In this document: in pieces, positions 1,522 to 64,000 of the stretch
Layout of the letters: each line of letters begins with the position of its first letter
Numbering within the stretch: position 1 is the stretch's first letter
From: Norana najaformis
Taxonomy: Eukaryota; Annelida; Clitellata; Crassiclitellata; Hormogastridae
Assembly (NCBI GenBank): GCA_964023275.1
Contig: OZ029914.1
Location: 40,651,924 to 40,715,923, forward strand
Direction: 5' to 3'
Length of the DNA: 64,000 bases
Position numbers and translations under genes: made by a program
Notes under the pieces: generated by a model
Told to the model about the DNA's origin: nothing
Seen by the model: only the letters and a program-made list of their open reading frames with translations
Databases searched by the model: none

Positions 1522-1555
1522 ATGTGGATCATCGTGTTAGCAGCGTTCGTCGGCG
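1522..1555 (+). CDS. Gene A exon 1: signal peptide start
   Basis: ATG at 1522 opens MWIIVLAAFVG and ends after one base of the next codon at a GT donor (1556-1557, GTACGT), so phase 1. The hydrophobic run is a short signal-peptide core. It joins in frame to exon 2, giving AVGGYL at the mature N-terminus. Copy B differs by one residue (V to I). Confidence 0.65.
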
Positions 1556-3086
1556 GTACGTTTCTGAACTTAACATCACGTGTCTGTGTAATATTGCTCA
1601 ATTTTAGTGTAGATATTTAAAAAAATGTATTTTAAAGTTACAATATCTATTTGAATCAAAATGATAGAAATCATCCTCTCTTTTTTTAACTTAAACCTAG
1701 CTCACCGTAATAGCGTCTCTGTCCATTACCCTCTATGGTCTCACGTCAACCGGATCTTGTACTTTCTATGGTATGTCTGGACACTCCTTCTGACCTGACG
1801 CAGCGCTCGTAAATTAGCTACTATGCCTTGAACCTGGGCAACCGCGCTTAAAGCGAAAAGACTTAGACATCTTGTGGAGATCTGACATTCACAAAGGGCA
1901 AGAAAACGGAAGCGGATGAATTACAACAGTTAATATGAACAACTTCACAGTTTAAATATGAATGTGTACAGCCAAAACTAATTTTTTGAACTTGGAAATT
2001 ATAACACAATCCGCTTTCATCTTCCTCTTCTTCCTGAAGCTTGCGAAACTTATCGCAACCTAGTTCAATGATGTAAGGCATTTTTTATGTTAGTCTTAGA
2101 GATGTCATATTAGTCCTATCCAATTGCTTTTATCTGTATTTAATTACAATTTGCCTTTGGATAAGTTTATATTGACCTGTTTAAACTGTTGGGTATTGAA
2201 GCTAACTAACGTTCGAGCTTTTTGTCTGAAAAGCATTAACTATGAGAGATTGGAGTTTCTGACCAAACGCATAATAAATGAAATTATCCAGTTTATAATA
2301 GCTAATAATGTCTACAGCATTTACTTCTTCTGACGGACCGAAGGAATCTCATCAATTATGCTGATTTACATAGCGTAGTAGCGTCAAATTTACTGAAAAA
2401 ACATCAAATATAAGAATTAGATTATGTGGTCTATTTTTATCGACCAAATGAGGTTATTGTGTGTATTAAAGTAGTTGGAGCCGATTCAAACGGTTTATGG
2501 ATGTTGCAATTATGTAGCCTAATTGGTAATTTTTTTTTGTACCGCTTTCACTATTCAAATCATATTCCGTCCATCGGATACCAAACTTATAAATGGTTTC
2601 GTTTTCTAAATGTCATTCACGTCTTTCAATGTCCGTGAATTTCGGTTCAGATTTCACAATGCTTGACACATATGCGATCTCTCTGTGTAATTGAACTATA
2701 CTGCAAGGCTTGTATGGAACTCTGGGGCATTTTATCAATAAACATTATAATTATATGCAAATAAAATAGATCGCTAATTATGGAAATACAAATTACAAGT
2801 GAGCAGATAACCTAAATGCCTCATGTATACAAAATGGACAAATTTTCAGTAGTCCATTCACTAGTTCAATATGTGTAAAAACCCTTATGGGACGCGGCGG
2901 TGTAGTGGTATGGTCTGTGCCTTGTAACCGGAGGGTCGCGGGTTCGAATTTGCCAAAGCCACTGCTTAGCGACCTTGGACAAGTTGCTCGCCCACAATTG
3001 TCTGTGATCAAGGCAACGGGAAACCACCTCAATCATCTCTTCCCCGGATGGCATAAAGCCAATGGATCTGCCTTCGGGCAGAGAAC

Positions 3087-3149
<63 letters not shown>

Positions 3150-3847
3150 ATAACCCTTGTTTTATGCTCTGTCCATGAGGTATGCCTATGCATTCTTGTA
3201 ACATGCATTCATGCATACCTGCAAACATACGTGTAAACGTACATGCATATACACTTGCATAAATATATACACACAGACACATAATAGTATAAGTTATAGA
3301 GTAACTTCAGACGTGAACCTGTTAAATTTATATAAATGTTTATTTAAAGTTAATTTTAATGTTAACATTTATGTTTTCCGAAGCCGTGGGTGGTTATTTA
3401 ATTACGGCGCCTCGTGATGCAATTGTTTTATTGGGAGACCGCGTTGAGTTGGACTGCATCACGAATACGTCCCGTCCGCTTGATTGGCATTTAATTCGCT
3501 ATGGCGGTGGTAAAGACGATTGGATATCTCGCGGCAAACAAACAGGTCCAAATATTTCCAACGCCTACAGAATACAAAGTAATGAAGTTGGGCGGTTTGC
3601 TCTCGTTATTGATCCTGTGCTTACTTCATTCGCCGGACGATATGAATGCATTGACAAAGATGAAGAGGACGCGCTCACCGCGGAGATCACTGTTCTAGGC
3701 AAGGATATTTCTCGCAACATCATTAGAATACTCAAATCAGATCGTTGTCATGACATCGTCATGACCATAATCATAATCATCACCATCACTACCACAACCA
3801 ATACCATCATCATCACCATCATAATCTCGTCATCATCATCATCATCG

Positions 3848-3878
<31 letters not shown>

Positions 3879-6427
3879 TATCCTCCTCATTATTGATTTA
3901 ATCGTTATTATAGTCATCGTTGGCAGCGTCGTATTAATCGTCACCTTCTTATCCCTCGACGTCAACGTCCTTCTTGTCTTCATCGTCCTTAGAAAGAACA
4001 AAAACACCGTCACCATAAACAACAAAACAGTCATGCACAATAATATGATTTAATAGCCAATGATTAGAGATTTCATTCAGTATTATGCAGAAAACATTTG
4101 TCCTTTTCTCTTTTGCACAATTATTCAAAAAGAAACCCAGATTAGTATTTCTAGTAATCTTGAAATCAAAATCAAACCAACGCAAAGTAAAATTATTAAC
4201 ATCGCATTGCGATTTAAATTCAACTCATGCATTAAGCGTCAGGTGACGGAGAGATTATTAAATTGCAATGTTGACAGAACAATCCATTTAATTGGCTTTT
4301 ATGCTAACAAGTTTAATGAAGTTGTTTCCATTAATGCGAGGCTTGTTCAAAAGACTTGAGTGAACAGTCAAAGAATGTTTCAAAGTTTCTCTTGATGTTC
4401 ATTGTACAAGAACTAACTTCCTTTTAAGTTAGTTTTTTTACAAGCAAGTAGAATGTAATTCAAGGATTCAATTACATTTGGCGTTTTAAAATACATGTTT
4501 GCGCCTATCTTTACATTTGTTTAGTAAAGAACAGAAATATCCAGTGATAAATCAGGGTAAACAAATGTTGCGAGTCAATGCTTGCTTGATTCTAAATTAT
4601 TAGTGTTAACGTAAAATCAGCTTGTAAACTTTTTTATAATATTTGTGAAATTTATTTTGCCATTGTTAAAGTTTGATTTATTATGCTACATTCACTATTT
4701 TTGTGTTCAGATTCTACTCCATCTTGTAATGAAAGCACACTGAATTCGTCAACAACGATAAATATAATCTGCGTTTTTCACTACGCTGGAAACATACAAC
4801 CTGAAATAGAGTGGTTAACACACGAAAACACTGCTTGGAAGGGACTTTGCAATGTTTCATCAGATGTCACTGTTCACTGCACATTTGAAGGCCCTTCCAA
4901 TCCCAACGAGCGATCACCAAACTTCGATGCTGTCACGAGAATTTCCAGTGGAGAAAACTGTGGCCCTACGTGCGAATGGGGTACTGATACATTTCGGTTT
5001 AATGCATGCTAGTGTCTTGTTATTCTTAAAACTGGTGGCATTAGTTTTCAAAACTAAACAAGGGGTAGAGCTTCAAAGGGGATCATATATAATTTAAAAA
5101 TTTTGACTGTTTCTGTCTTTGAGGCTTTTAAGGACTTTTAGAATCAAAGTTTGCTTTTTCATAGTCTAACATTTCTGATGACCATTTCTGTCATTTGGAC
5201 TTCAGAATACCAAAAGTCTACTTGTCTACTTTCATGTCACAAAAATTAATTACTACCTTGTAAGTCCTCAGTGTTTATTTTCAATATCTTTTGCCGTTGT
5301 TGTGTTTTCAATAAGCGTGTTCATCTCTATCACAAATGCGCAATATTTGCATGAATCAATCAATCAGTGTTCAGTCTATCAATACAGTGTTGGCCAACTT
5401 TCATGACTAGAAGTCCAATAGTTGTTTGCACTTCAGCGACCAATGGCTCAGTTGGGAAGGGACTTGGCTAATGTAAAGCCGCCATTGGTTCTTAATAAAC
5501 TCTAGCAACATTTACGTTGACGATAAGGTACTTGTATTGTGCAGAAGAAATGTTCATTCACATCTACATATATTTTTATACGTACACATTTACATCTATT
5601 TTTATACATAATAATTTCTTACCACGTATCGTCGATCGTTAACTTTACTATAAACTCAGACAACAGAAATTTATTGTTGGCACAGCCGACAAACTTAGTG
5701 GTAATACAAATACAGACTAAGAAGAACAATTAACAGTAATTTCACAGAATTCGAGTTCAGTAATTTTATTTAGTATCTTCTTATTTCAAATGAATGGCAG
5801 AAAATAGATGTCAAAATGCGAGCAATCTGTGGCTCAAGAGTAGTCTAAAAATTGCATGTTAATTAATATTGCGCACATTATAGGCCGAAGATTTGGCATA
5901 GTAAGGCGTCATAAGCTTGTTATTGGAATCTTCTTCTTGAATGTAGTTCCCGGCAAAGCAACATCAAATGTGGTAGTGCTTTATATCAAAAGTAACAGCA
6001 AAACTGTTGGAGGCTGGAGGTGTAAGTGTACAACACTTTCAAGTCAGTCGGAGACAATACCGGAAGCAGAAATTAGAGGTAAGTTATGCAATCTTAAAGT
6101 TACCAAAGAAGCCTATGCAAGAACAATTTACAACAATGCTTTTCAAATAAATCATAATCGTCAACTAGAGATTTCTACAGAGCCCAAAGAAAGCTAAGCT
6201 GATGGAACCAGCTTATTTACAGGTGCTCAGTCAAAACAGAATCGATAGGCAGGAGGGGCAAATTTGGTTCCAGGTCAAGAACCCAGTCACGTAGGCAGAC
6301 AGTCAAATTGAGTTACATAGAGTGGCGTTTGGAAATGGAGCGTAAGAGAGATAAGAGTGGGAGAGGAATCAGGATAGGATTTGTGAAAGAGGACTATTTT
6401 TATCAATTATTCTAATCTAAAAGTCAC

Positions 6428-6459
<32 letters not shown>

Positions 6460-7640
6460 TCATCATCACAAGAAGTAGCAGCATAGCTTGAATTGTTCTC
6501 GACTGTACAGGTTCGACATCGCCTCCCTCTGTAGCGATGATCGCGATTCTGGCAGTGCTTGTCTTCATCTCAATTTCGGCATTCATCTTCATACTCCGCT
6601 TCACTGTCTTCAGCAAGAAAACAGAAAGTAAGTGTGTAAACTCGTGGACAGGCTACCGAATGGTACCAGATGTATCAGATGGTACCAATGGTACCAAATG
6701 GTACCAGATGGTACACCTCAACTGTTATTATTTCAAAGTCTCTTAGCCAGGAAGCGATTCTTTCGTCTATTCATTTAATTTCTAATTCATTCGTTTGCTA
6801 TCTCATTTATCCATTCCTTTGTTCTTTAGTTCATTTATTCATCCATTCATTCATTTGTTCCGTAGTTCATTCTTTCATTCATTCACGCAGGCAGACAAAC
6901 AGGCAGAAATAGTGGTGCTTCGGTTAACCGATACCTAACTGACGACGCGGTATGCAGAAAACTGAAACTGACACCGAAGTCGGTATTCGGAAAACCGAAG
7001 ATAAAATACCGACAAAACCAAAAGTCGGCATGTGCAGAATGCAAATATTAGAATATTATTTTTCCTCACAAATATTATTTTTTGTTCATTGAACATTTCT
7101 AAACATTGTTGAAAATATATTGATGCTGACTGATAGGCCGCCTAAACTAAAGGCATAAAGATCACATTAAAAACCGGAAGCCGGTACCGACATAGTGAAA
7201 TCTAGAAAAACCGAAGCCGTATCTACTTTTAAAAAATACCGAGAAAAATAACGAAAAACGATATCAACCTAGCTCTGATAAGCATGCTCTCAGCATGCGA
7301 GACCTCCCGTTAGTGGACAGGTTTATGACAGTACAGTTGTGCAATGTGAGTTATTGGTATTTTTACATCAGGTCACACGGATGCAATTAACGTATCTGAG
7401 AAGCCTCCAGAGAACGCTGAGAATTCCGTAATCGATGCCCCAGTCGACGTGTCATCAGAACAGATGCCTCCCGAGTATGAAAATTGCAAGTCTTGTGCAG
7501 TAATGGTGGCAGATGAAAAACCGATTGAAGGAACTGATCGAGATGACAAGTACGCTGCTTTAATTCCATCCGAAGTAACTCTGCCAAGGCCACACGATTA
7601 CGCTGAATTAAAATTTTCTTCGAGCAAATTAAAAAAATAA
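1522..7640 (+). CDS. Receptor gene A: IgSF type I membrane protein with cytoplasmic ITAM
   Basis: I assembled six coding exons: 1522-1555, 3384-3698, 4711-4980, 5947-6078, 6511-6627 and 7372-7640. Every junction is phase 1, giving 379 codons with the stop. Predicted order: signal peptide (residues 1-11 plus), V-like Ig domain (C36, W46, Y98-x-C100), second Ig-like domain split over two exons, transmembrane helix at about 258-279, and cytoplasmic tail. The tail has Y325-E-N (a possible Grb2-type SH2 site) and an ITAM, Y350AAL-x12-Y366AEL, with legal spacing. Introns are GT-AG except the one after the V exon, which appears to be GC-AG. By family knowledge an ITAM recruits tandem-SH2 kinases of the Syk/ZAP-70 type, so an activating surface receptor is inferred. 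No ligand is suggested. Copy B repeats the structure with all frames open. Transcript support is needed for the exact splice sites. Confidence 0.75.
2889..3150 (+). repeat. tRNA-derived SINE with (CAT)n tail, copy A
   Basis: A tRNA-like head (A box near GTGTAGTGGTATGG, B box GGTTCGAAT) is followed by a body with CAATTGTCTGTGATC and a pure (CAT)n tail. The same insertion at the same place in copy B (18297-18592) shows that it predates the duplication. It is not a tRNA gene: the acceptor stem is not closed. Confidence 0.7.
3384..3698 (+). CDS. Gene A exon 2: V-like Ig domain
   Basis: This 315-base exon has phase 1 at both ends. It encodes about 105 residues with the Ig hallmarks: ELDC (B strand), DW (C strand), a middle WISRG stretch, and FAGRYEC, a Y-x-C F-strand motif. 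The acceptor follows TATGTTTTCCGAAG. The donor reads TAG|GCAAGG, a GC donor, because no GT donor keeps phase at the domain end. A long (ATC)n tract starts about 70 bases downstream. Compared with copy B, changes cluster at residues 63-71. Confidence 0.8.
3760..3890 (+). repeat. (ATC)n microsatellite after the V exon
   Basis: Imperfect then pure ATC/CAT repeats lie directly downstream of the V exon in the intron. The equivalent tract is at 19195-19320 in copy B. Open frames through it give runs of Ser, His or Met and are not coding. Confidence 0.9.
4711..4980 (+). CDS. Gene A exon 3: first part of the second Ig-like domain
   Basis: This 270-base exon is phase 1 at both ends. The acceptor is TTGTGTTCAG, and the donor at 4981 (GTACTG) follows codons for GTHR-like text ending C-E-W. 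It encodes six cysteines, an IEW C-strand motif and sequons (NES, NSS, NVS). If the donor is skipped, the frame runs only ten more codons to TAG, so a secreted short form is conceivable. Only four of 270 bases differ from copy B. Confidence 0.7.
5947..6078 (+). CDS. Gene A exon 4: end of domain 2 and juxtamembrane spacer
   Basis: This 132-base exon is phase 1 at both ends, with acceptor CTTGAATGTAG and donor GTAAGT. The text VVVLYIKS...GGWRCKC resembles the E-to-G strands of an Ig fold. It aligns by eye with SSLTVPF...YPLTC in the single-exon domains at 57.7 and 59.9 kb, so domain 2 is probably split by an intron here. A Ser/Glu-rich spacer follows (TTLSSQSETIPEAEIR). Confidence 0.6.
6205..6395 (+). 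repeat. Dispersed repeat W, intron copy
   Basis: This sequence recurs in copy B (21640-21830). A diverged third copy outside the duplication lies at 33295-33475, sharing CTTATTTACAGG and GTCAAAACA words and a GAGATAAGAG-type end. It is a mobile or dispersed repeat of unknown class. Confidence 0.6.
6511..6627 (+). CDS. Gene A exon 5: transmembrane helix
   Basis: This 117-base exon is phase 1 at both ends (acceptor GACTGTACAG, donor GTAAGT). It encodes a Pro/Ser lead, then an uninterrupted hydrophobic helix of about 22 residues rich in Ile, Val and Phe, then R, K, K on the cytosolic side. There is no charged residue inside the membrane, fitting a receptor that carries its own ITAM instead of pairing with an adaptor. 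Copy B is one codon shorter (21946-22059). Confidence 0.75.
6660..6715 (+). repeat. GGTACC minisatellite beside the TM exon
   Basis: Four to five GGTACC palindromes spaced by 3-4 bases (unit ATGGTACCA) start about 30 bases after the TM-exon donor. Copy B keeps it at 22093-22150. Confidence 0.7.
6915..7265. mobile_element. CGGTA-rich element, possible non-autonomous DNA transposon
   Basis: About 350 bases are dense in CGGTA/TACCG and CGGTT/AACCG words in both orientations, a pattern seen in some MITEs. Copies sit at the matching place in inverted copy C (15900-16240) and in copy B (22345-22690). Clear terminal inverted repeats and a target duplication were not found. Confidence 0.3.
7372..7640 (+). 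CDS. Gene A exon 6: cytoplasmic tail with ITAM
   Basis: The acceptor is TTTTTACATCAG. The open frame runs 89 codons to TAA at 7638-7640. It is acidic and hydrophilic, with PPEYENCK, DKYAALIP and HDYAELKF. YAAL and YAEL are separated by 12 residues, satisfying the Yxx(L/I)-x6-12-Yxx(L/I) consensus. Copy B has YADL and YAEL. The same exon occurs a third time, inverted, at 15509-15786. Confidence 0.8.
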
Positions 7641-11056: not shown

Positions 11057-11507
11057 CTTAAAAAAGTGACAAGAGTACTTGGCAATTGTTGGTCAAAGTT
11101 GTACCAGGTAAACTAAAATAACTTTTTGCTTCCATTTAGCCACACTGTGGCATATTAAGAACTTCTGGTCAGCTATTGTAGTAAAGTATGACTTCATTTA
11201 CCTCAATGGCCATCTTTTTTACTCATTTACAGGCCACATAATGCACTATACAATAGACTTACAATCTTTAGTATCACTGTACAACAGATTATGTCACAAC
11301 GCATGAGAAGAACCATGTTTGTTGGATGGATACTTTAGATCATACTTTCTGAAGATGCTTTAGAACTTCTCGAAACAAAGAGAAAGAAATCCACTGCAGA
11401 TTTTATGTACAAGTTTAAAGGATAAAATCTTAATGTAGACCCAAACCCAGATCAAAATACAGATTCACCAAAGTCCGGAAATGCAGCAGGCACTACAATC
11501 TACTTAC

Positions 11508-11864
11508 TGCTGACAGTCAAAATGATGGATATTTGTTCAGTGGATAATGCGTCATCATCAAAGCATATGTACTCCCCGGAGTGCGAAGTTTTGGCTCGCA
11601 GTATGACCAGAGAATAAAGTCCCACCACTCGATCTTTCTTTATTTTAAATTCAGAAGCACGCAGTGGAGACATTTCACCGCCGGAATTGATCTCAGTGGG
11701 CCTCTTAGAATGGGTGGGTCTGAACTGCCAGCTGACGTAGTTGGAAAGTGTCGTTTGACATTGTAATTCGACCTCATCGCCTATATATTTCAGTAATGCA
11801 TCGTAATGATTGTTCAACAAGGCCCCAGCAGTGAAACTTGAAGCGACGAAGAAAATCGTCAGTT
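11508..11864 (-). CDS. Ig exon D: divergent V-like domain, orphan exon
   Basis: On the minus strand, an exon from 11864 (acceptor TTTGTTAAAATAG) to 11508 (donor GTAAGTA) is 357 bases, phase 1 at both ends. Its N-terminal part is hydrophobic (LTIFFVASS), so it may hold the second half of a signal peptide. The rest has GDEVELQC, VSW and HSGEYIC, the B, C and F strands of a V-like Ig domain. GDEVELQC parallels GDRVELDC of genes A and B, but the rest is very different. No matching first exon, transmembrane exon or tail was found nearby. A piggyBac element lies just upstream in its reading direction, so the gene may be broken or partial. Confidence 0.6.
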
Positions 11865-15508: not shown

Positions 15509-15786
15509 TTATTTTATTAATTTGCTCGAAGAAAATTTTAATTCCGCGTAATCGTGTGGCCTTGGCAGAGTTACTTCGGATGGAATCAAATCAGCGTACT
15601 TGTCATCTCGATCAGCGTACTTGTCATCTTCAGTCGGTTTTTCATCTGCCACCATCACTGCACAAGACTTGCAATTTTCATACTCGGGAGGCATCTGTTC
15701 TGATGACACGTCGACTGATGCATCGATTACGGAATTCTCAGCGTTCTCTGGAGCCTTCTCAAGTGCGTTAATTGCATCCGTGTGAA
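15509..15786 (-). pseudogene. Orphan receptor tail exon C
   Basis: The minus-strand copy of the tail exon keeps its acceptor (TTTTTACATCAG) and an open frame of 92 codons to TAA. It is closer to B than A (INALEK, DAS, YADL, SKLIK). A short in-frame expansion duplicates DDKYAD, giving YADR, YADL and YAEL in a row. The YADL/YAEL pair still fits an ITAM. No Ig, spacer or transmembrane exon accompanies it on this strand, so it is an orphan, yet it is undamaged and could act as a donor for gene conversion. Confidence 0.7.
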
Positions 15787-16929
15787 CTGATGTAAAAATA
15801 CCAATAACTCACATTGCACAACTGTACTGTCATAAACCTGTCCACTAACGGGAGGTCTCGCATGCTGAGAGCCTGCTTATCAGAGCTAGGTTGATATCGT
15901 TTTTCGTTATTTTTCTCGGTATTTTTTAAAAGTAGATACGGCTTCGGTATTTTAGATTTCACTATGTCGGTACCGGCTTCCGGTTTTTAATGTGATCTTT
16001 ATGCCTTTAGTTTAGGCCTATCAGTCAGCATCAATATATTTTCAACAATGTTTAGAAATGTTCAATGAACAAAAAATAATATTTGTGAGGAAAAATAATA
16101 TTCTAATATTTGCATTCTGCACATGCCGACTTTTGGCTTTGTCGGTATTTTATCTTCGGTTTCCCGAATACCGACTTCGGTGTCAGTTTCAGTTTTCTGC
16201 ATACCGCGTTGTCAGTTAAGTATCGGTTAACCGAAACACCACAATTTCTACCTATTTGTCTGCCTGCGTGAATGAATGAAAGGATGTACTACGGAACAAA
16301 TGAATGAATGGATGAATAAATGAACTAAAGAACAAAGGAATGGATAACTAAAACTTTATATGAACTTTAACTTTTACCCAACATATATCGGCTGTACGGT
16401 ATATGTGTACGGAGAACTGTAAACATTACAGCTAAACGCAAAGTTTTTCTTTCTCAGATCTATTTATGTTGACTGCAGCCTCTGTTTAATGCGCGACACT
16501 GCTTAATAATGTTTTCATAGATATGAGACTCAAGCAAATAGATTTTCCTGCAAGTCTGAGGTGCTGTCGAAAGTTTGTTCTTAACAACATTTAGGCTAGC
16601 ATAGGCAGCGCTTTTGTAAGATACCAAAAGGCGCTATATAAAGCAGTTTGCATCTACACCACTCGCTAAGGCTTGCAGCTAACAAAAGCCGACATCGTAC
16701 GACATGTGCTGCACACTGCATGAAACAAAAGCAAACAATTAACATTAACTTAGATGGTGGAGGCATTACCATAAATCAATGAAAAGCCCAGGGTCCATAT
16801 AAGTTGATAGCATCAGCCCAGTAAGTTTAATTAAGACATGTAACATGGAAAATAAAACGTTTTCGATGACGAACGACATTTCCTTTATTGTACGTCGACA
16901 TTTCCTTTATTGTACGTCAGCCGACAGTC

Positions 16930-19271
16930 ATGTGGATCATCGTGTTAGCAGCGTTCATCGGCGGTACGTTTCTGAACTTAACATCACGTGTCTGTGTAAT
17001 ATTGCTCAATTTTAGCGTAGATATTTTTAAAAATGTATTTTAAAGTTAAAATTTCTATTTGAATCAAAATGATAGATATCATCCTCTCTTTTTTTAATTT
17101 AAACCTAGCTCACCGTAATAGCATCTCTGTCCATTACCCTCTATGGTCTCACGTCAACCGGATCTTGTACTTTCTATGGTATGTCTGGACAATCCTTCTG
17201 ACCTGACGCAGCGCTCGTAAATTAGCTACTATGCCTTGAACCTGTGCAACCGCGCTTAAAGCAAAAAATACTTAGACCTCTTGTGGAGATCTGACATTCA
17301 CAAAGAGCAAGAAAACGGAAGCGCATGAATTACAACAGTTAATATGAACAACTTCACAGTTTAAATATGAATGTCTACAGCCAAAACTAATTTTTTGAAC
17401 TTGGAAATTATAACATAATCCGCTTTCATCTTCTTCTTCTTCCTGAAGCTTGCGAAACTTATCGCAACCTAGTTCAATGATGTAAGGCATTTTTTATGTT
17501 AGTCTTAGAGATGTCATATTAGTCCTATCCAATTACTTTTATCTGTATTTAATTACAATTTGCCTTTGGATAAGTTTATATTGACCTGTTTAAACTGTTG
17601 GGTATTGAAGCTAACTAGCGTTCGAGCTTTTTGTCTGAAAAGCATTAACTATAAGAGACTGGAGTTACTGACCAAACGCATAACAAATGAAATTATCCAG
17701 TTTATAATAGCTAATAATGTCTACAGCATTTACTTCTTGTGACAAACCGAAGGAATCTCATCAAATATGCTGATTTACATAGCGTAGTAGCGTCAGATTT
17801 ACTGAAAAAACATCAAATATAAGAATTAGGTTATGTGGTCTATTTTTATCGACCAAATGAGGTTATTGTGTGTATTAAAGTAGTTTGAACCGATTCAAAC
17901 GGTTTGTGGATGTTGCAATTATGTAGCCTAATTGGTAATTTTTTTGTACCGCTTTCACTATTCAAATCATATTCCGTCCATCGGATACCAAACTTATAAA
18001 TGGTTTCGTTTTCTAAATGTCATTCACGTCTTTCAATGTCCGTGAATTTCGGTTCAGATTTCACAATGCTTGACACATATGCGATCTCTCTGTGTAATTG
18101 AACTATACTGCAAGGCTTGTATGCAACTCTGGGGCATTTTAACAATAAACATTATAATTATATGCAAATAAAATAGATCGCTAATTATGGAAATACAAAT
18201 TACAAGTGAGCAGATAACCTAAATGCCATATGTATACAAAATGGACAAATTTTCAGTAGTCCATTCACTAGTTCAATATGTGTAAAAACCCTTATGGGAC
18301 GCGGCGGTGTAGTGGTATGGTCTGTGCCTTGTAACCGGAGGGTCGCGGGTTCGAATCTGCCTCAAGCCACTGCTTAGCGACCTTGGACATGTTGCTCGCC
18401 CACAATTGTCTGTGATCAAGGCAACGGGAAACCACCTCAATCATCTCTTCCCCGGTGGCATAAAGCCAATAGATCTGCCTTCGGGCAGAGAACTCATCAT
18501 CATCACCATCATCATCATAATCAACATCGTCATTATCATCATCATCATCATCAATAACCTCATTATCATCATCATCATCATCATCAATAACCCTTGTTTT
18601 ATGCTCTGTCCATGACACACGAGGTATGCCTATGCACTCTTGTAACATGCATTCATGCATACCTACAAGCATACGTGTAAACATACATGCATATACACTT
18701 GCATAAATATATACACAGACACATAATAGTATAAGTTATAGAGTAACTTCAGACGTGAACCTGTTAAATTTATATAAATGTTTATTTAAAGTTAATTTTA
18801 ATGTTAACATTTATGTTTTCCGAAGTCGTGGGTGGCTATTTACTTACGGCGCCTCGTGATGCAATTGTTTTATTGGGAGACCGCGTTGAGTTGGACTGCA
18901 TCACGAATGCATCCCGTCCACCTGATTGGCGTTTAATTCGCTATGGCAGTGGTAAAGACGATTGGATATCTCGCGGCAACCATACATATAAAAATATGTC
19001 CAAAGCCTACAGAATACAAAGTAATGAAGTTGGCCAGTTTGCTCTCGTCATTGATCCTGTGCTTACTTCATTCGCCGGACGATATGAATGCATCGACACA
19101 GATGAAGAGGAAGCGCTCACCGCGGAGATCACTGTTCTAGGCAAGAATATATCTCGCAACATCATTAGAATACTCAAATCAGATCGTTGTCATGTCATCG
19201 TCATGATCATAATCACAATCATCACCATCACTACCACAACCAATACCATCATCATCACCATCATAATCTCG

Positions 19272-19317
<46 letters not shown>

Positions 19318-22300
19318 TATCCTCCTCATTATTGATTTAATCGTTATTGTAGTCATCGTTGACAAAGTCGTATTAATCGTCACCTTCATATTCCTCGACG
19401 TCAACGTCCTTCTTGTCTTCATCGTCCTTAGAAAGAACAAAAACACCGTCACCATAAACAAAAAACAGTCATGCACAATAATATGATTTAATAGCCAATG
19501 ATTAGAGATTTCATTCAGTGTTATTCAGAAAACATTTGTCATTTTCTCTTTTGCACAATTATTCAAAAAGAAACCCAGATCAGTATTTCTAGTAATCTAG
19601 AAATCAAAATCTAACCAGCGCAAAGTAAAATTATTAACATCGCATTGCGATTTAAATTCAGCTGATGCCTTGGGCATCAGGTGACGGAGAGATTATTAAA
19701 TTGCAATGTTGACAGAACAGTCCATTTACCTGGCTTTTATGCTAACAAGTTTAATGAAGTTGTTTCCATTAATGCGAGGCTTGTTCAAAAGACTTGAATG
19801 AACAGTCAAAGAATGTTTCAAAGTTTCTCTTGATGTTTATTGTACGAGAACTAACTTCCTTTGAAGTTAGTTTTTTACAAGCAAGTAGAATGTAATTCAA
19901 GGATTCAGTTGCATTTGGCGTTTTAAAATACATGTTTGCGCCTATCTTTACATTTGTTTAGGAAAGAATAGAAATATCCAGTGATAAATCAGGGTAAACA
20001 AATGTTGCGAGTCAGTGCTTGCTTGATTCTAAATTATTAGTGTTAACGTAAAATCAGCTTGTAAACTTTTTATAATATTTGTGAAATTTATCTTGCCATT
20101 GTTAAAGTTTGATTTATTATGCTACATTCACTATTTTTGTGTTCAGATTCTACTCCATCTTGTAATGAAAGCACACTGAATTCGTCAACAACAATAAATA
20201 TAATCTGCATTTTTCACTACGCTGGAAACATACAACCTGAAATAGAGTGGTTAACACACGAAAACACTGCTTGGAAGGGACTTTGCAATGTTTCATCAGA
20301 TGTCACTGTTCACTGCACATTTGAAGGCCCTTCCAATCCCAACGAGCGATTACCAAACTTCGATGCTGTCACGAGAATTTCCAGTGGAGAAAACTGTGGC
20401 CCTATGTGCGAATGGGGTACTGATACATTTCGGTTTAATGCGCGCTAGTGTCTTGTTATTCTTAAAACTGGTGGCGTTAGTTTTCAAAACTAAGCAAGGG
20501 GTAGAGCTTCAAAGGGGATCATGCATAATTTAAAAATTTTGACTGTTTCTGTCTTTGCGGCTTTTAAGGACTTTTAGAATCAAAGTTTGCTTTTTCATGG
20601 TCTAACATTTCTAATGACCATTTCTGTCATTTGGGCTTCAGAATACCACTACTTGTCTACTTTCATGTCACAAAAATTCATTACTACCTTGTAAGTCCTC
20701 AGTGTTTATTTTCAATATCTATTGCCTTTGTTGTGTTTTCAATAAGCGTATTCATCTCTATCACAAATGCGCAATATTTTCATGAATCAATCAATCAGTG
20801 TTCAGTCTATCAATACAGTGTTGGCCAACTTTCATGACTAGAAGTCCAATAGTTGTTTGCACTTCAGCGACCAATGGCTCAGTTGGGAAGGGACTTGGCT
20901 AATGTAAAGCCGCCATTTGTTCTTAATAAACTCTGGCAACATTTACGTTGACGATAAGATACTTGTATTGTGCAGAAGAAATGTTCATTCACATCTACAT
21001 ATATTTTTATACGTACAAATATACATATATTTTTATACATAATAATTTCTTACCACGTATCGTCGATCGTTAACTTTACTATCAACTCAGACAACAGAAA
21101 ATTATTGTTGGCACAGCCGACAAACTTAGTGGTAATACAAATATAGACTAAGAAGAACAATTAACAGTAATTTCACAGAATTCGAGTTCAGTAATTTTAT
21201 TTAGTATCTTGTTATTTCAGATGAATGACAGAAAATAGATGTCAAAATGCGAGCAATCTGTGGCTCAAGAGTAGTCTAAAAATTGCATGTTAATTAATAT
21301 TGCGCATATTATAGGCCGAAGATTTGGCATATTAAGGCGTCATAGACTTGTTATTGGAATCTTCTTCTTGAATGTAGTTCCCGGCGATGCAACATCAAGT
21401 GTGGTAGTGCTTTATATCAAAAGTAACAGCAAAACTGTAGGAGGCTGGAGGTGTAAGTGTACAACACTTTCAAGTCAGTCGGAGACAATACCGGAAGCAG
21501 AAATTAGAGGTAAGTTATGCAATCTTAAAGTTACCAAAGAAGTCTATGCAAGAACAATTTACAACAATGCTTTTCAAATAAATCTTAATCGTCAGCTAGA
21601 GATTTCTACAGAGCCCAAAGAAAGCTAAGCTGATGGAACCAGCTTATTTACAGGTGCTCAGTCAAAACAGAATCGATAGGCAGGAGGGGCAAATTTGGTT
21701 CCAGGTCAAGAACCCAGAGTCACGTAGGCAGACAGTCAAATTGAGTTACATACAGTGTAGAGTGGCGTTTGGAATTGGAGCGGTAAGAGAGATAAGAGTA
21801 AGAGAAGAATCAGGATATGATTTGTGAAAGAGGACTATTTTTATCAATTATTCTAATCTAAAAGTCACCATCATCATCATCATCATCGTCACCATCATCA
21901 TCACAAGAAGTAGCAGCATAGCTTGAATTGTTCTCGACTGTACAGGCTCGACACCGCCTCTCTCTGTAGCGATGATCGCGATTCTGGCAGTGCTTATCTT
22001 CATCTCAATTTCGGCATTCATCTTCATACTCCGCTTCACTGTCTGCAAGAAAACAGAAAGTAAGTGTGTAAACTCGTGGACAAGGCTACCGAATGGTACC
22101 AGATGTATCAGGTGGTACCAATGGTACCAAATGGTACCAGATGGTACACCTCAACTGTTATTATTTCGAAGTCTCTTAGCCAGCAAGCGATTCTTTCGTC
22201 TATTCAATGAATTACTCATTCATTCGTTTGCTATCTCATTTATCCATTCCTTTGTTCTTTAGTTCATTTATTCATCCATTCATTCATTTGTTCCGTAGTT

Positions 22301-42110: not shown

Positions 42111-42114
42111 ATGC

Positions 42115-46115: not shown

Positions 46116-47250
46116 TGTGACCCTTGCATTATATAGTCTCATAACAAAGTATTGTCCAAGTGTTTACAGTTGACAACGTATTAACAGCTTTTGCAAGATG
46201 GGTCAAGGGTCATCTATTACAGCTGAAACGCATCGAACAAAAGAGCTCAATCATGTAGGCTAATCAGACAAAAATTACTAGTACATGAATTTAAATTTAA
46301 TTTCATACTTTACCAGTTCTTTTTATATATAAGATAACATTACAAGATTACAACAAATACCAGCTAAATGCACTGAACCAAAACGAACTTATTTTGGCTC
46401 AGTGCATTTGGTACAGTTGGAGATAGTGAGCTCAAGAAAGATTGTTCATAGGTTATTACTGAGAACTTTCCTTTGTTACACCAGCGCGACCCTTGCGCAA
46501 TTTTTTTTACATCGTAGTGAAATGTTCATAAGTGTACATCAGACATACTGCCGAAAAAACAAAACATATGGTGACATTTATGTTCATGGCGTTATATTTT
46601 CACACTTAACTGTAGCTTTCTAATACAATGAAACGGAAAATTGAAGGACAAAGAATGTATGTATGCATGCAATTCATGCATGCATGGATCTGCATAGTGC
46701 CTTAAGGAACCTGTCCTAGACATGCATGCATACATACATTTATATATACGTGTAAGCCTGTACATATACGTGCATACATACTTGCCTACACAAAAATACA
46801 TATATACAAACATACATACGCACACAAGTGCATCTATGCATGCATTTACTAGCCACATTTAATCACATTTCATGCTAGGAATGTCTGGCTAACATAGCCT
46901 ACGTTCCAGTCACTTCGTAGGTGCGTAATGTTTTCCATGGCCGGCAACGGCTGAAATAAAATACTTGTTTTCCGAGCTACATTCAAATTTATATTGTATG
47001 TCTCAAGAATTCTTACCCCAAATTCTGATATTGAAGCCACTACAAAACTAACTTACGAAGCTCCTGTAAACAAGTCGGAAAGCTAACATGTACCTCTAAT
47101 TGGGTGTATCATATGTGTAGGCCTACGTATTAAAATGAATTTGAAAGAAATTTTGAGTAAATTTGTATATCATCTTTGTCATGTTCATTAGGATTAGTGT
47201 ATCGCTTTCACTTTGGTGAAACATTGAATGAGTGATCAATGCTGGCGTAG
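46116..47250. other. Spacer with ATGC/ACAT microsatellites
   Basis: No gene was seen. Imperfect TGCATGCA/ATACATAC repeats lie at 46650-46850. Confidence 0.4.
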
Positions 47251-47436
47251 GTGCTGGCAGCAAACGCGTTCTGTATTTGCATCTTTCTCGGTATCGAACT
47301 TGAAGGCGTTTCGACCAAGGATTTAACATCAGTCATCTGTAAGTACTCAGTTCCGTCAGCTCCAGCAACCTACAAAGAGTTACCCAGTAGAGAAAAAGCA
47401 TCGTCAGATCTATCAAGATCTAAAACATCTTCTTGA
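47251..47436 (+). CDS. Possible tail exon with YKEL motif
   Basis: The plus-strand frame ends APATYKELPSREKASSDLSRS...stop. An acceptor-like ACATCAG precedes TCATCTGTAAG, but the same stretch also holds a perfect GTAAGTA donor, so the exon limits are ambiguous. YKEL is a bare YxxL. It may be a receptor tail or chance. Confidence 0.25.
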   Translation: MLAANAFCICIFLGIELEGVSTKDLTSVICKYSVPSAPATYKELPSREKASSDLSRSKTSS

Positions 47437-48798: not shown

Positions 48799-49157
48799 TT
48801 AAAATTTGATTTGTGACAATATCTCACTTGGCTTTTTGGAATTGGAATAAGCAACAGCGTGTTCTTGATGATGATTCTTCGAAACCGCTTCATGAACAGT
48901 CGCATACTGCAAGAAACCAAAGTGATTCGCGGGTCCTTGGTCGGGACTGGCAGGATTTGAGAGAGTGACTTGTGAACCACTGCGTTTTGGGTCAAGACGA
49001 GTACATTCGGGAATCGTTGAGTAAGCAGTTGCATATCCAGCATCTTCACAATCCTCGTGATTTATTGACCATATGTGATCTTCTTGGTGTGTTTGCTGAG
49101 AGAGCACGTCGACCGGTCGCTGTTTCTCTGCAGGTTGTTTCTTTCTACTGCGGCGCA
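48799..49157 (-). CDS. Gene E tail exon with ITSM-like and ITIM motifs
   Basis: Acceptor TTTTCAATCTGCAG at 49158, then 118 codons and TAA. It begins with a basic juxtamembrane stretch (RRSRKKQ). Tyrosines lie in GYATAYSTIPE, FLQYATVHE and VAYSNSK. Phase 1 joins it to the transmembrane exon (K-K then V-R-R). Hydrophilic throughout, consistent with a cytoplasmic tail. Confidence 0.65.
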
Positions 49158-52100
49158 CTGCAGATTGAAAAGCAACAAACGACATAGAATAAACTACAGT
49201 GATCCTGGGAAGAGCGGAGTTTGTGGTGGTTTTTTATTGGCTTGCCTACTATGATACACTTCGCAATCGTAATTTTCTTTAGCAACGATATCAAACACCG
49301 AGATCCTGCCGTTTAAGTCCGTTTAATACTCCAAGTGCTTAACCAAGGAACAGAGCTGACGGTAGGTACATCCATGCCAATAAACCAGAGTCAGGCTAGT
49401 GTCTTCACGCTAAAGGTTCGCAGCTATTTCTTAACTAACTGCTATTAACTAACTACACGCCCTATCCCCTAAAGCACAGCTTAACGACGACAACGTTATT
49501 GGTTACAGGGCGTGTCTGAGTCCGCATCTCCATCACTCACTCACTTACTTACTGTCTTTTTAAACGCGCCCTCTTATATACTACTCTGAGGGAACTCGCG
49601 CCACACGTCAAAAAGAGATCCAGAATCCGCGGGAACTCGATGCTAGAGAACTCGTTGCTAGGGAACTCTACACTAAACGAACTCATTGTAAATATCAATG
49701 CATAACCCGCTAAAATATTTCTCCCCGCCATTGTTTTATGAATAGTTAATTATGCATTGATATTTACCATGAATAGGCGGTTATTTCTCCGCTATTGTGA
49801 GGCAATCGTTGAGGTTTAAAATGTGCTATATAAATACACTGAGTGAATGAAACAGTTAATAGAGGCAGAATATAAAAATGCTTACCTTTTTTGGTACATA
49901 TTATGACTACCAGCAGAATTATGAGCAACACGATTAGAAGAATCAAAACGACAAAGAACATCCAATGACCTGTAATGACAACAGAAATATTGAATCAATC
50001 AACGACACACTATACGGAAGCCGCAGATAATGAATTTATATCCCGAGAATTGTTCAACAAATCGTGTTGAAATATGGCTAAAATATAATTCAGTTACCTT
50101 ATGCCCTCAGTACGTCATTTGTACCAATCCTGTAGAACCTCTTAGTAGTCGCTACACAAGTTTAATTACACAAAACAATCAAATTTGGTCAAAATTTTAT
50201 TGCAATAACGATTAGCTCTTCAGTTAAGAACCCTATTTTGTGGAATATATCATTGTTTTAAGACCCATCTTGTAGGCTTAGAAATTTTAGGAGAGGCCTA
50301 AAGTGTTAACCCTTGTAAGAAGCAGTTTAAACTTCACTCTATACACTTGCGATGGCAATTGGTATGGTACAGCAACCTAGAAGTAACTCGCTACTAAAGA
50401 TGCTATATTAATATTATTTCCGTTATTACCGTTGCTACAACTGTTACAATGACAGATAAGTTGTTCGAAGTGCCTCCGTAACGGCTCTCATGTTGACATC
50501 AGTGGCGAACTTAGTATGTGCAAAAAGTAAGTACGCCCCATAAGCCTAGAATCTCTGTCTTAACTTAAATCATGGATCCAGTACTAGCCATGTTACATTA
50601 CATTACACTATATAATTTTGTGTAACACTCTGATCAACAGTGACTTTATATAGGTCATAAAATTTCCATCATCGCAATAAAAACGTCCTTTACAGCCCAA
50701 TAAATTTCAATCAAGTCATTCTGGCCTAAAAGAGAAAGAGAGGGCTAAAGGCAACAAATTCAGACAAGGTCACGAAAGTCACGAAAAGCAACTGACTATC
50801 TGGGCGTAGGTTCACGTGACTCTATATACTTACGCGAAATGACTCATGCGCTTGAGCGCTAGTTAATGTGTATGGGTGCTGGACTAAAGCAAAAGTGTAA
50901 GCCTTGTTCATGTGCAATTCATATTTATAAGCATGAAAGTGGCTATATTTGGTCTATGGTGACTCATGAAGGTCTAAGTCTTAGCGATAATTTACGTACA
51001 CTAAAATGAAAATGTAGGCGTAAACAAATACTGCGATATTGCTGATCATTTGATACAGATAGGTGTGGTCAAGAGTAATTGTAAATGTACACGTTTTTGT
51101 ATAGCGACCGTATGGTCTCGATCCTGCTCATTTTCAGTGAATTAATCGGGTGAGATTCTTCACCACCGCCTCCCGTTTGAATAAGGTCCCAGTGTACGGA
51201 CCGAGCTAATGAATGAAAGAAGCCACGAATTGGATGCGAACCGGCGAACTCACGCTCAGAGGCGCCTTGACTTAAGCGTGTGGCTCACCAGAGGGCAGTA
51301 AAGTGAGTATACTGCAGTGGTACTTGGCGATGTGTCATAAGTTAGACAATGTGTGCCAGTCAAATTTTAGCTTTTGGGTCCAGGTCAAGTTAGAGGCCAA
51401 GCAGTCTAAGTTTCCTGTTCTCTTTCAGCAGTCATAGTTTCTGTATAACAGTTGTTAGAACCCACTTCAAACTGTCATATCTAGGGCCCGTATAATGACA
51501 ACTCTAATTGTCGTTTGTCTTTGGTCCCCTAATTACCAAAACCCGGCTTATATGTGTAACTGAGTAGACACTGGCCTAGAGCAATAAGAGGCAATTATTA
51601 TGGAATGACACATATGTATGATATCATATTGCGTTGTTTGCTTTGGATGAAGTTACATCTAACCTATAATTTGTTTTCACAATAGAAGCCGTAGATATTT
51701 ACCTATTGAGAAATTCGGTTCCAAAAACGCAACTGATGTCTGTTCGGCTGCTGAAATAAATAAAGATGACCATCATTATTGTTCGTCCCACCCTGCAACT
51801 CTATATGTTGTCGTGTAATTGATATTTCACCAATGATAATCTATATGACCATACTACAAACTACTTTAAAAGGCACAAGATTTTCTATGCTCCATTTGTC
51901 AGATTGTTTATAAGCCTTCACGTGAAGCTATGAAACATATAAGATGTGAAGGATTTAGATATTTGCAAAAAATAAAAGTAAGACTTCTTCGGCTTTTTGT
52001 TTAAACAATCGCAGTCTTTTCTTATGCTGAAGTTTAGATGTTGTACTAATCGAGGCTGCAGTGTGTTTTACAATACAAATAGGCCTACTGTAACACTTTT

Positions 52101-54711: not shown

Positions 54712-54780
<69 letters not shown>

Positions 54781-59935: not shown

Positions 59936-59946
59936 ATTGTCTTCAG

Positions 59947-60252
59947 ATGCGCAACCGAAATGCTCAAAGGAAGTAATATCTGGTTTCATAAAAGCGAGCT
60001 GCAGTATTGGTTACATTGGATACTGGCCTTCTAAGATAGAATGGTGCAACGTGAACGGAAGGCTGGAAACAACTCATACAAAGACAATTTCAAACAGCCA
60101 AGTCACTAGTTCTTTGACTGTGCCATTTAACAAAGCTGATCCTGGAGCATCGTACCCTCTTACGTGCACGCCGAAGTTTAACATAGAGGACAAACTAAAA
60201 GGAACAACAGCAACGAATGTTCCAGAATATCCTGTTAGCTGCATGGTAACAG
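59947..60252 (+). CDS. Unit 2 Ig exon (C2-like domain)
   Basis: This 306-base exon is phase 1 at both ends (acceptor TTGTCTTCAG, donor GTTAGT). By hand count it differs from the unit 1 exon at 18 bases, 12 changing the residue and 6 silent. All canonical Ig residues are kept and the middle third is identical. Its upstream partner is the signal exon at 58846. No downstream exon was identified before the window end. Confidence 0.65.
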
Positions 60253-61190
60253 GTTAGTTCTTTCAGCGATGACAACGCAGTCCCCTTATGTTGCTTTAAC
60301 TGCTGGTATGTGTATGTACACTGTATGCGTGCATGATAACAAAATAACTCTGCAAAGAGGTAATCTATAAAGATCAATTTTACACGATGATAAACTAAAA
60401 GACTAGTTCTTAAATACTAATCTTTATCTGAACTAGTAAATGTGAGTCGATTCATATAAAAGGGCCTCCGCTGACATGATGCACAAGGAACCAGAACCCG
60501 TAAGAAGTGCTGAAAGTAAGCGCATTAGTAATCTATTACCGGTCAACTCAACTTCAATGTCTGATGATACTGTTGACAAACATCTTAATAACTTTACTGT
60601 TTATTTTATTATTATTAATTATTATTATTATCAGTTAGTAACTACTATTTTGACGGTGTTTAATGCACAAGGCATCAACCAATGGCGCGTAAAAACCAAG
60701 CCGTAATCAGGTCAATATTCAGAAGCTGATTCCACTAAGACAGTCCAGAGTACTCATCCAGTGACACTGCTTGTTTTAAAATAAGGCAACACTCGTACTG
60801 TTTATTGATTATAAAGACTTATTGTCATTTTGCTACTTGATGCAAATAATGTTTGTAAAGTTAAGCTGCATAAAATGACTTTATAGTTGACAGTATTAAC
60901 GACAAACATTGCAAACGAAGCAGACTAAAAAGCCGTAGCTTATACAAGACCGAATCTGTATTTATAGTTTGGTAAAGTCAATAAGTCAACATTTATGCAT
61001 AAAAATAGCTACCATGAAATATTGGACTGAAATATCAAAATCGCATAATTATGTAAACAAATGAGTATGGTGAAGAACTTTGAAAGTTTTGCTGCTTTTT
61101 ATAGAGAAAGAGACAAACTCTGCTCTTCTTCCTCCGTCTCCGCCATTCCACAGAATCGGCGTTCTTGGCTGTTTTGCCACTTTGTCGAAC

Positions 61191-61399
61191 ATGGAAATAA
61201 AGCGACGAGTGCAAGACATCAAAGCAGAAATTGTATCCGACGTAGATCCTTTTCGGCTGAGTGATTGGCTGATTCACAAAAAGATCATTACAATCAACCA
61301 ATGGCAGGAGATCAATGGCAGCGAGAAGACCAATCAGGACATCAGTCGTAAACTCCTCAGTAACTTGTTGAATCTTCCAACCGTAACACGTTTCTCGAT
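61191..61399 (+). CDS. CARD-like exon
   Basis: ATG at 61191 opens MEIKRRVQDIKAEIV, then DVDPFRLSDWLIHKKIIT, QWQEI and ISRKLLSNLLNL, a helical pattern like a caspase-recruitment domain (L-x-x-D-x-D-P-x-x-L-x-D-x-L-x-x-x-x-I-I-T, then a late LL-x-x-L helix). The frame meets TAA at 61401, but a good donor (AT|GTAAGA) at 61400 suggests splicing in phase 2, with the sixth helix in a later exon. It follows directly on unit 3 of the receptor array. CARDs mediate homotypic assembly of apoptotic and innate-immune complexes. Assignment is by eye only. Confidence 0.45.
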
Positions 61400-61403
61400 G
61401 TAA

Positions 61404-62884
61404 GACAAGCCCTCGTGGAGCAAAATCACTGGTTGTTGCCGAAAATCACTCAACGTGTGTGCACTTGTAAGCAGACGGGCACGTTGGGGTGTGGAATATT
61501 CAAATAAAAAGTATGTTAATCCAACCCAAGACAAAATAACATATTCCAATGTTTTTGTACATTTTTTCATTGCTTTAACGTTCTATTGAAATAGCTCAAG
61601 ACATTTCAATACAATAGTCGTCAAGCATGACTACTTTGTGTATAAAGTTGCTTTTCTACTATGATTTTATTAAATTTACATCCCCTATTAAATTTAAACC
61701 TCCTCTTTTGCTCTCCCCAATTCCGTCCCCGGCGCGCGGCCATCCGAACAATCCCAACAATATACTATGACTCATTAGCTCGTACGATCCGACAGACGCT
61801 TCTTCTGCTCATAGATGTCAGTGCCTTATTCACATAACGCCGATTTAAAACGACTTTGCATCGTTCAATGACTCTAGCCTGTTATACTTTAAGCAACTGT
61901 TCAAGTCCCACATGCAATGGTCGTCTCAGTGAAGGGCGAGCATGCATCTCCAAGGTCCTAGGCTGGCATTTACAAAATCAACTACATACAGACACGACAC
62001 TGTAGCGAATTGGTTTTAGATACGAAGAAATGGAGTCATTCATAAACTTGTGCCAGTCAACGTCATTAGTCACTAGGCACTGACATCTATAGGCGAAAGA
62101 TATACGGTAATCAACCATGTCTCTGTGACTTGAAGAACATTTAATTTTTCTAATTTGCAATAGTTTTTGAGTAATCTACTCGCTGATCTTCCAGAGAGCT
62201 CTCTAGTTCATAAATGTTACACAAAGCAAATGTTAAGAATTCGCTAATTTGCTAATTATGACCTTAATAGGAACAGTCTCCAGATAAGCAATCCCATTCC
62301 TAATTTGGATCGTAGCACAAACAACACCGATCTGTACAAGTTAGACCTAAATGATAGATAGTCACCAGTTTAAACATCGTTTTCATAAAGGTCATTAAGA
62401 CTCGTGAGATGCGTACAACGAAAATAAATCATGCAATGGTGATAACAATATACATGTACAAATGTTAAAATGTTGTAGTACTTTTGGAATGTGAACATTC
62501 TTTAATCGAAGATTCAGTAGCACATACTTCTTTCCGCGAATTGTCAATCAGATTCAAGAGTATTTAATTGACCAAGTGCTATGTCTTTGGGGAATTCTCA
62601 CAATTGCAAGCAAGTATCTCCTATATGCAATTGTGGAGCATAAGAGGTACTCACTTGTAATCCCAACACCTGAACCATCAAGGGGAGATATTTTTCAAAG
62701 TATTTGGGGATGGATAGGAAAAACAGCACGCGATATTTCCCAGTTCATTCCAAATTTCAATGCTTTGTGACTGAGCAAGCAACTCGTCCAAGATCGTTCC
62801 AGCGCCTGCTCTGGGAACTCAAATCCTCAATCATTGGACTACAAGTCACGCGAGTTACCAATCAAACCAGAACACCATAAATTA
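61404..62884. other. Spacer, no recognised gene
   Basis: A frame at 62576-62770 has a hydrophobic start and an amphipathic end (SIWGWIGKTARDISQF), but I recognise no family. The rest is AT-rich with no clear exon. Confidence 0.3.
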
Positions 62885-64000
62885 TCGGAGTCATATCCCA
62901 TATGAGCAAATTTCCATATGTGACTCTTATGGGTTCAATCAAATGTTTATGGGAGAAGCTGTTATAAGCGGTTAAAGTGAAAGACAGTGGCAAGAGTTGG
63001 TTTCTGGTGTCGGGAAACGGAACTAACAATGCGGAATAATACACTATGAGAGTTTCGAAGAGGGTGCAGGAACTTTAGCGTTGTGATCGATGCTAGCGTA
63101 CACTTCGACAAGGCTGAACATGGGATTCTTAGACGGCGGGGCCACTCCTGTGGCGTAGGCTCTGGCGATGTTCATCTCGACGTACTCCGTCGTATAGGAC
63201 TGGCTTACTCTCGGAGGCTTCGGGGGTGGCGTGCCTTGTTGCTCCATTTGGGTGGCCCGCGGAGGTTTAGGTGGCCCGTTTGACTGGTTCACTGGATTCA
63301 TTGTCACGTAAAGAACATTCTGGAACAGACAGATTCGCGTTTTAGATCGTGTCCGTAATGTAAATGTAATGTAAATCTAAATCTCCATAATTTCTCAGCG
63401 TCATACAAAAGCCGCGTCAGAGTGACCTGCTTAAACACCGGCGCTATATCAAATCATTTTCGTAAGAGCCGCGTTTTTTGGTCAGTTTCTGTGCCAGGTC
63501 ACCACAAAATTGCCCGAGGCATGCCCATATGGGACCCATATTATCATATGAACATATTTCTATATGGGACTCTGACTGGTTCCATATGGATTCCATCAAA
63601 TGTTATCGGAGATGCTGGCCGGTTATAAAGGGTTAAAGAATCAGAATCCGGGGGTCAAGCCAAGGAGACAACATGGTGATACGGTTGAAATCGTTGGTGA
63701 CGGTGGGCATGGGAGAGTGCAGGAGCGGAAGCAGGATAGGATAGCCTGAACAGTTCGATTTTCAGTCTTGCGTGAAGGGCTGCAGGGGAGAGGGCAAACT
63801 AAGGATTGTTCAGATTGACAGGCGAGCGTCAAAAGGAAAAAGCAAGTTCCATTGTTCCATGAGGAACGTAAAGAAGGCGCTCATTTTCTGCTCTTTGGCC
63901 TCTGAGCCGGCAGTCGACGAATCCCACGGTGCTGGACACGGGGACAGTTCATCGCAGGCTGGTCGACTACTTCCCAGATTGCGCCGGCACTAAACTTAAC
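62885..64000 (+). repeat. Duplicated segment T, copy 2
   Basis: Direct copy of 42115-43480, beginning at the CATATCCCATATGAGC palindromic words and continuing past the tail exon. Similarity decays after about 63890. The window ends inside or just beyond it. Confidence 0.75.
63044..63319 (-). CDS. Signalling tail exon T2 (SH3 ligand, YVEM, YASI)
   Basis: Minus-strand copy of T1 with the same acceptor (TCTGTCTGTTCCAG) and phase. It carries nine extra bases (three codons) after the acceptor. Eight or so residue changes leave PPKPPR, PPPKPPR, TEYVEMN and EVYASI intact. Any upstream exons lie beyond the right edge of the window. Confidence 0.5.
   Translation of the reverse strand, partial: NVLYVTMNPVNQSNGPPKPPRATQMEQQGTPPPKPPRVSQSYTTEYVEMNIARAYATGVAPPSKNPMFSLVEVYASIDHNAKVPAPSSKLS

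Follow-up and report, generated by a model that had tools for sequence, protein, structure and literature searches.

A probable worn segment of a large family of two-domain immunoglobulin receptors in the annelid Norana najaformis

Which kind of system is encoded where exons resembling immunoglobulin (Ig) domains lie among tyrosine-motif tails of several kinds, within 64 kb of the Norana najaformis genome? A sequence-only reading of this stretch, referred to here as the window (64,000 nucleotides, contig C2:40651924-40715923, in an assembly of 608 Mb and 17 contigs), had described a fast-turnover recognition locus of the Ig superfamily (IgSF) with mixed tails, and had proposed it as an undescribed system. 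Contig C2 denotes the chromosome that carries the window and is distinct from the C2-like Ig domain. We suggest that the window is probably a worn portion of a very large family, expanded by tandem duplication, of transmembrane (TM) receptors with two Ig domains, whose likeliest role would be immune recognition. The predicted architecture is V - C2-like - TM - tyrosine tail, with two conserved tail classes. One carries paired YxxL units resembling the immunoreceptor tyrosine-based activation motif (ITAM), and the other, labelled T, carries YxxM and proline-rich motifs.

Two receptor genes in the window

The window contains two real two-domain receptor genes, A and B, with the following exons.

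1522..1555, plus strand: gene A start exon (MWIIVLAAFVG), with a phase-1 donor (GTACGT), splicing in frame
3384..3698, plus strand: gene A V-like Ig exon, with a GC donor (CTAG/GCAAGG)
4711..4980, plus strand: gene A C2-like exon, diverged from the C2 exons of its neighbours
6511..6627, plus strand: gene A transmembrane exon, its end at 6627 set by the donor
7372..7640, plus strand: gene A tail, with YENC and KYAALIPSEVTLPRPHDYAEL (YxxL-x12-YxxL)
16930..16963, plus strand: gene B start exon
18826..19140, plus strand: gene B V-like Ig exon, with a GC donor
20147..20416, plus strand: gene B C2-like exon
21946..22059, plus strand: gene B transmembrane exon
22801..23069, plus strand: gene B ITAM-like tail (KYADL-x12-YAEL)

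Both genes run from the start exon through the V, C2-like and TM exons to the tail, and both have a GC donor after the V exon. Self-comparison of the window showed them to be a tandem duplicate (1359-8162 against 16771-23592, 95.7% identity), with a ratio of nonsynonymous to synonymous substitution rates (dN/dS) of 0.73 over 280 codons. The five exons of gene A were joined in silico into a single open frame of 334 residues, and only for this gene were TM segment and tail placed in one joined frame. In gene B the V, C2 and tail frames are open; its tail, KYADLIPSEVTLPGPHDYAEL, has two YxxL units with 12 residues between them. Gene A ends in a TM segment and a tail and is thus not of the FREP or VIgL form. 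Among the 20 window open reading frames (ORFs) scanned with Pfam, none matched a fibrinogen or lectin domain.

Pfam gave only weak Ig_3 and I-set matches, under the cut-off, for the V exons of A and B. A 12-member V profile (nine sequences from the window and its flanks, described below, and three from other clusters) matched Ig domains in PDB, with a best value of 6.7e-21, and likewise matched Robo, contactin and DSCAM. The two sheet cysteines and the core tryptophan were invariant in 12/12 sequences, which places the V exons in the IgSF. Single C2-like exons were barely detected by Pfam (Ig_3 in 3/10 members, best 5.9e-6). The 10-member C2 profile matched an NCAM Ig domain at 3.4e-4; its DSCAM row reached 4.7e-5, with no single stretch passing. 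The predicted structure of the C2 domain was all-beta at low confidence (pLDDT 57). On these profile matches the C2-like exon qualifies as a predicted Ig domain. Exons of this region served as seeds for all five profiles (V, C2, T, ITAM-tail and TM), which makes the E-values of those seeds circular; the tails T4, T5 and C were not among the seeds.

The tail motif was assessed over 264 kb, comprising the window and 200 kb of flanking sequence. After ORFs dominated by two residues had been removed, 406 ORFs of at least 80 aa were left; 20 showed the pattern Y..[LI]x6-12Y..[LI] within their final 60 residues, and family tails made up 11 of those. By eye, seven of the nine non-family ORFs were hydrophobic or repeat-like and two were not. 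Markov controls (n=6) showed the pattern in 1-6 of 168-201 ORFs. It fitted 11/12 ITAM-type tails, with a spacing of x10-12, the second tyrosine being replaced by asparagine in one. In an alignment of 11 tails, from which C was omitted, the first tyrosine and leucine did not vary, and 10/11 kept the second tyrosine.

The array beyond the window

A search for more members nearby had been proposed, and the census of the 264 kb, made with profiles seeded from this genome, found them: the cluster reaches far past the window. Loci recovered in several pieces (a C2 at 40564823 and a V at 40743964-40744280) were counted once. The totals were 18 loci for V (from 19 rows) and 18 for C2 (from 20 rows); some were broken. 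There were 12 ITAM-type tails (C included) and five T-type tails, the latter all on the minus strand. Tandem V-C2-TM-tail genes formed a plus-strand block at 40.555-40.675 Mb and a minus-strand block at 40.72-40.795 Mb. Judged by order and distance, 11 genes had all four parts, seven in the plus block (including A and B) and four in the minus block; gene A was the one among them whose exons were spliced into one open frame. The V exons that were displayed are followed by phase-1 donors. Tandem and inverted duplicates were 94-99% identical, and 20 paralogue pairs had dN/dS values of 0.29-0.85 and no stops, so that constraint on them looks relaxed. Two V exons on opposite strands, at contig C2:40776348 (L034) and 40810611 (L037), had a dN/dS of 0.29; the scan of the 264 kb found no C2 exon for either and a TM-like exon near L037.

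Genome-wide counts came from scored subsets of the candidates, 150 of 910 for the V-set and 150 of 375 for one C2-domain query. Contig C2, which makes up 8.5% of the assembly, held 103 of the 150 scored V-set matches and 136 of the 150 scored C2-domain matches. For 13/150 V matches, a same-strand C2 match lay no more than 5 kb downstream (at 0.6-2.8 kb), and none lay upstream or on the other strand. The same order, V exon then C2 exon, was seen in 6 kb of contig C4. When the V and C2 lists were combined and joined at gaps below 600 kb, clusters appeared on contig C2 at about 0.2-3.8, 39.2-41.8, 43.6-43.9 and 47.7-50.5 Mb, and on contig C4 at about 28.6-29.1 Mb. None of the 150 scored V-set matches fell in the 264 kb that hold 18 V loci, and the true V number must therefore exceed the scored list. 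A protein homologue search returned one match from 3,435 candidates, a read-through C2 exon on a 1.7-kb contig.

Two minus-strand neighbours outside the window (V40755304/C2 40754679 and V40762650/C2 40762025) share a V-intron-C2 cassette in which 1,032 of 1,035 aligned bases are identical. The differences, three mismatches and one 2-base gap, leave the exons untouched. The flanks of the pair do not align and the TM exons differ. Tails were assigned to these genes by their order on the strand. In the first gene (V40755304) the stalk-TM exon lies at about 40753106; the family tail that follows on this strand, at 40748589, is T-type. The second (V40762650) has a TM exon near 40761200, phase 1 on both sides and in phase with the next tail, a 300-residue frame with C-terminal YEDL-x10-YACL. 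A third gene matched the first over 1,380 bp (78%) and the second only inside the cassette (632 bp), and the second gene therefore looks like the recipient. This cassette pair, one pair in one assembly, resembles a paired-receptor arrangement and is the strongest sign of one here.

Other tails and exons of the window

The remaining tails and Ig-like exons of the window are as follows.

11506..11826, minus strand: orphan V-set exon (Pfam V-set 4.1e-6, above the cut-off)
15509..15787, minus strand: C, an inverted duplicate of part of the A/B tail region, with no properly ordered V or C2 exon
42617..42880, minus strand: T1 tail, with proline-rich PKPPR repeats, TEYVEM and VEVYASI
47211..47369, minus strand: T3 tail, with TEYLQM and, further on, TYASIDH; absent from the sequence-only reading
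48799..49233, minus strand: E tail, with TAYSTI and LQYATV, resembling the immunoreceptor tyrosine-based switch (ITSM) and inhibition (ITIM) motifs, respectively
49929..49994, minus strand: E transmembrane segment
57665..57973, plus strand: orphan C2-like exon 1
59946..60254, plus strand: orphan C2-like exon 2, 80% identical to exon 1 in DNA
63047..63310, minus strand: T2 tail, with proline-rich repeats, TEYVEM and VEVYASI; protein 91% identical to T1

A, B and C had been read as carrying ITAM tails. All three do bear motif-containing tails, but C is not a receptor. In the self-comparison it was a 95-96% copy of the 3′ DNA of A and B, and its tail lies upstream of the sole nearby V exon on its strand, at 11.5 kb; C was rejected as a receptor gene on account of this order and of being a partial inverted copy. 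Since that V exon is downstream of the C tail, the two cannot make up a single gene in this order. The dN/dS between the B and C tails was 2.53, a value based on just five changes. Profile scans of the 264 kb found neither a C2 exon nor a family tail downstream of the orphan V exon; a hydrophobic stretch lies downstream of it, near 10.6 kb.

The three V-like exons that had been proposed (3384-3698, 18826-19140 and 11506-11826 on the minus strand) were all confirmed. The two proposed C2-like exons (57.7 and 59.9 kb) are real as well, but they are orphans, and A and B hold one more each. No V exon was found upstream of the orphan pair, and downstream of it the window has one weak repeat-like hydrophobic stretch only. 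The pair had a dN/dS of 0.56 and no stops.

T1 and T2, first taken for adaptor-type tails, proved to be conserved (dN/dS 0.37, stops absent), and the T class has three members beyond them in the 264 kb. Two of these, T4 and T5, are each preceded, at about 5-6 kb, by the C2 exon of a same-strand V-C2 gene. With T4 and T5 behind V-C2 genes, a free adaptor is not the preferred identity, and the T tails are likelier to be receptor tails. The profile scan found neither a V nor a C2 exon near T1 or T3. One weak T match at contig C2:47.93 Mb had no V or C2 exon in the 7 kb read there.

E does possess a TM segment and, as had been noted, an ITSM-like tail, but its place in the IgSF was not confirmed. 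No Ig exon was found on the minus strand from E to the end of the window. Apart from the window itself, the E tail matched the genome at C1:40971619-40972050, where the paralogous tail is 52% identical, keeps TxYSTI, has LHYATA in place of LQYATV and lies by a homologous TM segment. The 15 kb read around this paralogue contained no credible Ig exon, the one opposite-strand V match (0.045) being un-Ig-like. As an Ig receptor, E was rejected on present evidence. Around the E tail, about 48.4-53.6 kb of the window is collinear over several kb with C1:40970.9-40977.7 kb, and beside the E duplicate the C1 side carries tandemly repeated units of about 63 bp.

Other coding remnants also occur in the window. 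Between the copies A and B, the minus strand carries a long open piggyBac-type transposase at 12227-14041 (DDE_Tnp_1_7, 2.7e-71). A piece of a TNP-like transposase (RNase H C-terminal, 1e-6) was found at 41344-42114 on the minus strand, and one of a reverse-transcriptase element (zf-RVT, 7.7e-4, below the cut-off) at 38200-38850 on the plus strand. A 280-aa ORF with a PHR domain (2.4e-13) at 33929-34771 on the minus strand is possibly a BTB/PHR protein or a retrocopy of one.

Known systems and competing explanations

Known systems were compared through published descriptions. The oyster receptor CgIgIT2 is described as an IgSF receptor with a TM segment and an ITAM that binds microbes and signals through ERK (PMC11999971). 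It resembles the present genes as an invertebrate IgSF receptor with TM and ITAM, but it is one gene with five Ig domains, whereas here there are two domains and an array. The same review gives 41 genes with V-set and I-set domains for Hydractinia Alr. Both have many clustered IgSF genes, a likeness drawn by description only. In Alr, however, an allorecognition role is established, whereas the present family occupies several chromosomes and has a two-domain V-C2 module. ITAM and ITIM domains have been reported in candidate allorecognition genes (PMC12065747). The account of Botryllus fester/FcoR describes linked receptors whose tails bear ITIM, hemITAM or other tyrosine motifs, with putative activating and inhibitory roles (PMC12065747). 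Linkage and tyrosine-motif tails are shared with the present genes, but in Botryllus the system is encoded by FF/FcoR gene pairs. Clusters of single-pass TM genes, some with Ig only, are reported from hyperdiverse regions of Biomphalaria (PMC10875847) and are similar in this respect; in snail FREPs, by contrast, Ig is joined to fibrinogen, in place of which gene A bears a TM segment and a tail. Vertebrate paired receptors (CD300, CEACAM, NILT) combine similar ectodomains with tails of different output. They are vertebrate families, however, and the second tail class here (YxxM/proline-rich) need not be inhibitory. Given the ITAM/ITIM-tailed IgSF receptors reported from oyster, Hydractinia and Botryllus, calling the system undescribed in kind goes too far. 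The kind is known already, and scale together with the shared cassette makes it a variant. No description of invertebrate V-C2 cassettes common to different tails was found in the titles and abstract openings of the open-licence papers that the literature searches listed.

Several observations weigh against the proposed reading. The start exon of gene A is short for a signal peptide. No positive selection was found, dN/dS being below 1 in 20/20 pairs. Broken loci include the split V at 40743964-40744280, the fragmented C2 at 40564823 and a stop-bearing C2 at 40731734, and the gene bearing T5 yielded no TM exon. Genome-wide, tail matches are local (A 3, D 7, T 3, and E 3 at 2 places). SH2 domains, which count in favour, are plentiful (207 candidates, of which 150 were scored, giving 131 exon-level matches), but their abundance does not equal a Syk. 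Six partial SH2 matches to the same part of the domain lie close together at C8:30.39-30.62 Mb, perhaps an expanded SH2 gene. In the first cassette gene the TM exon ends in phase 1 and the tail exon starts in phase 0. Because of this mismatch, at least one exon between TM and tail must be missing from the model, and the odds that cassettes move between tails are lowered. The near-identical copies may also reflect an assembly error.

Might the window be mostly dead, with A and B in decay and with C, E, T1-T3 and the isolated exons left over from duplication and transposition? The orphan exons, the inverted tail fragment and the transposon ORFs point that way, as do the diverged C2 domain, GC donor and dN/dS of A and B; against it stand the open frame of gene A through five exons, the open V, C2 and tail frames of B, and the stop-free T1/T2 and orphan C2 pairs with dN/dS values below 1. 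We regard this explanation as somewhat unlikely, and it is compatible with a wider array of receptors. An allorecognition complex of the Alr type, in which polymorphic self/non-self markers govern fusion or rejection, would have the same broad form, judging from the published descriptions of clustered IgSF TM genes with ITAM/ITIM-like tails in Alr and Botryllus. The sequence, however, offers no hint of fusion or rejection, the animal may not be colonial, and V-set clusters spread over several chromosomes do not look like one complex, all of which makes this quite improbable. Matches of the V profile to Robo, contactin and DSCAM would agree with neural or developmental adhesion receptors that had diversified in number and used tyrosine tails for guidance signalling. 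These matches indicate the Ig fold only, and many duplicates with ITAM-type tails and shared cassettes would suit recognition better; a neural family therefore seems very unlikely.

Immune recognition by a large receptor family is thus the reading we prefer, most likely in blood or surface cells. It retains much of the proposed fast-turnover mixed-tail locus, namely the duplicates, broken and orphan exons, two tail classes borne by related ectodomains, and shared cassette, but loses its inhibitory leg (E) and the C fragment. Pathogen sensing is only inferred from architecture. The meanings of the ITAM, ITSM, YxxM and SH3-ligand motifs, and their Syk/Shark and PI3K partners, are those generally known. 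The V domain would bind a cell-surface or microbial ligand, and a Src-type kinase would phosphorylate the tail. The YxxL pair (x10-12) may then recruit a tandem-SH2 kinase of the Syk/Shark type, and the T tails (YxxM, PxxPR) PI3K and SH3 adaptors. Gene A excepted, we infer which tail goes with which ectodomain. Duplication and cassette sharing could keep the ectodomain repertoire changing while outputs are retained.

A bolder proposal, which we consider doubtful, is that of an invertebrate paired-receptor complex with some hundreds of receptors of the V-C2 type, most of them on a single chromosome. V-C2 cassettes would move between ITAM-type and YxxM/proline-rich tails, connecting one recognition surface to two pathways, as an independent counterpart of natural killer (NK) receptor complexes. 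If the placing of a cassette on different tails were general in the array, the paired-receptor strategy of vertebrate NK cells would have arisen again in an invertebrate, perhaps across hundreds of genes. A long-standing question would then become directly testable, namely by what means animals that lack antibodies maintain a large and changing repertoire for recognition with their signalling in balance.

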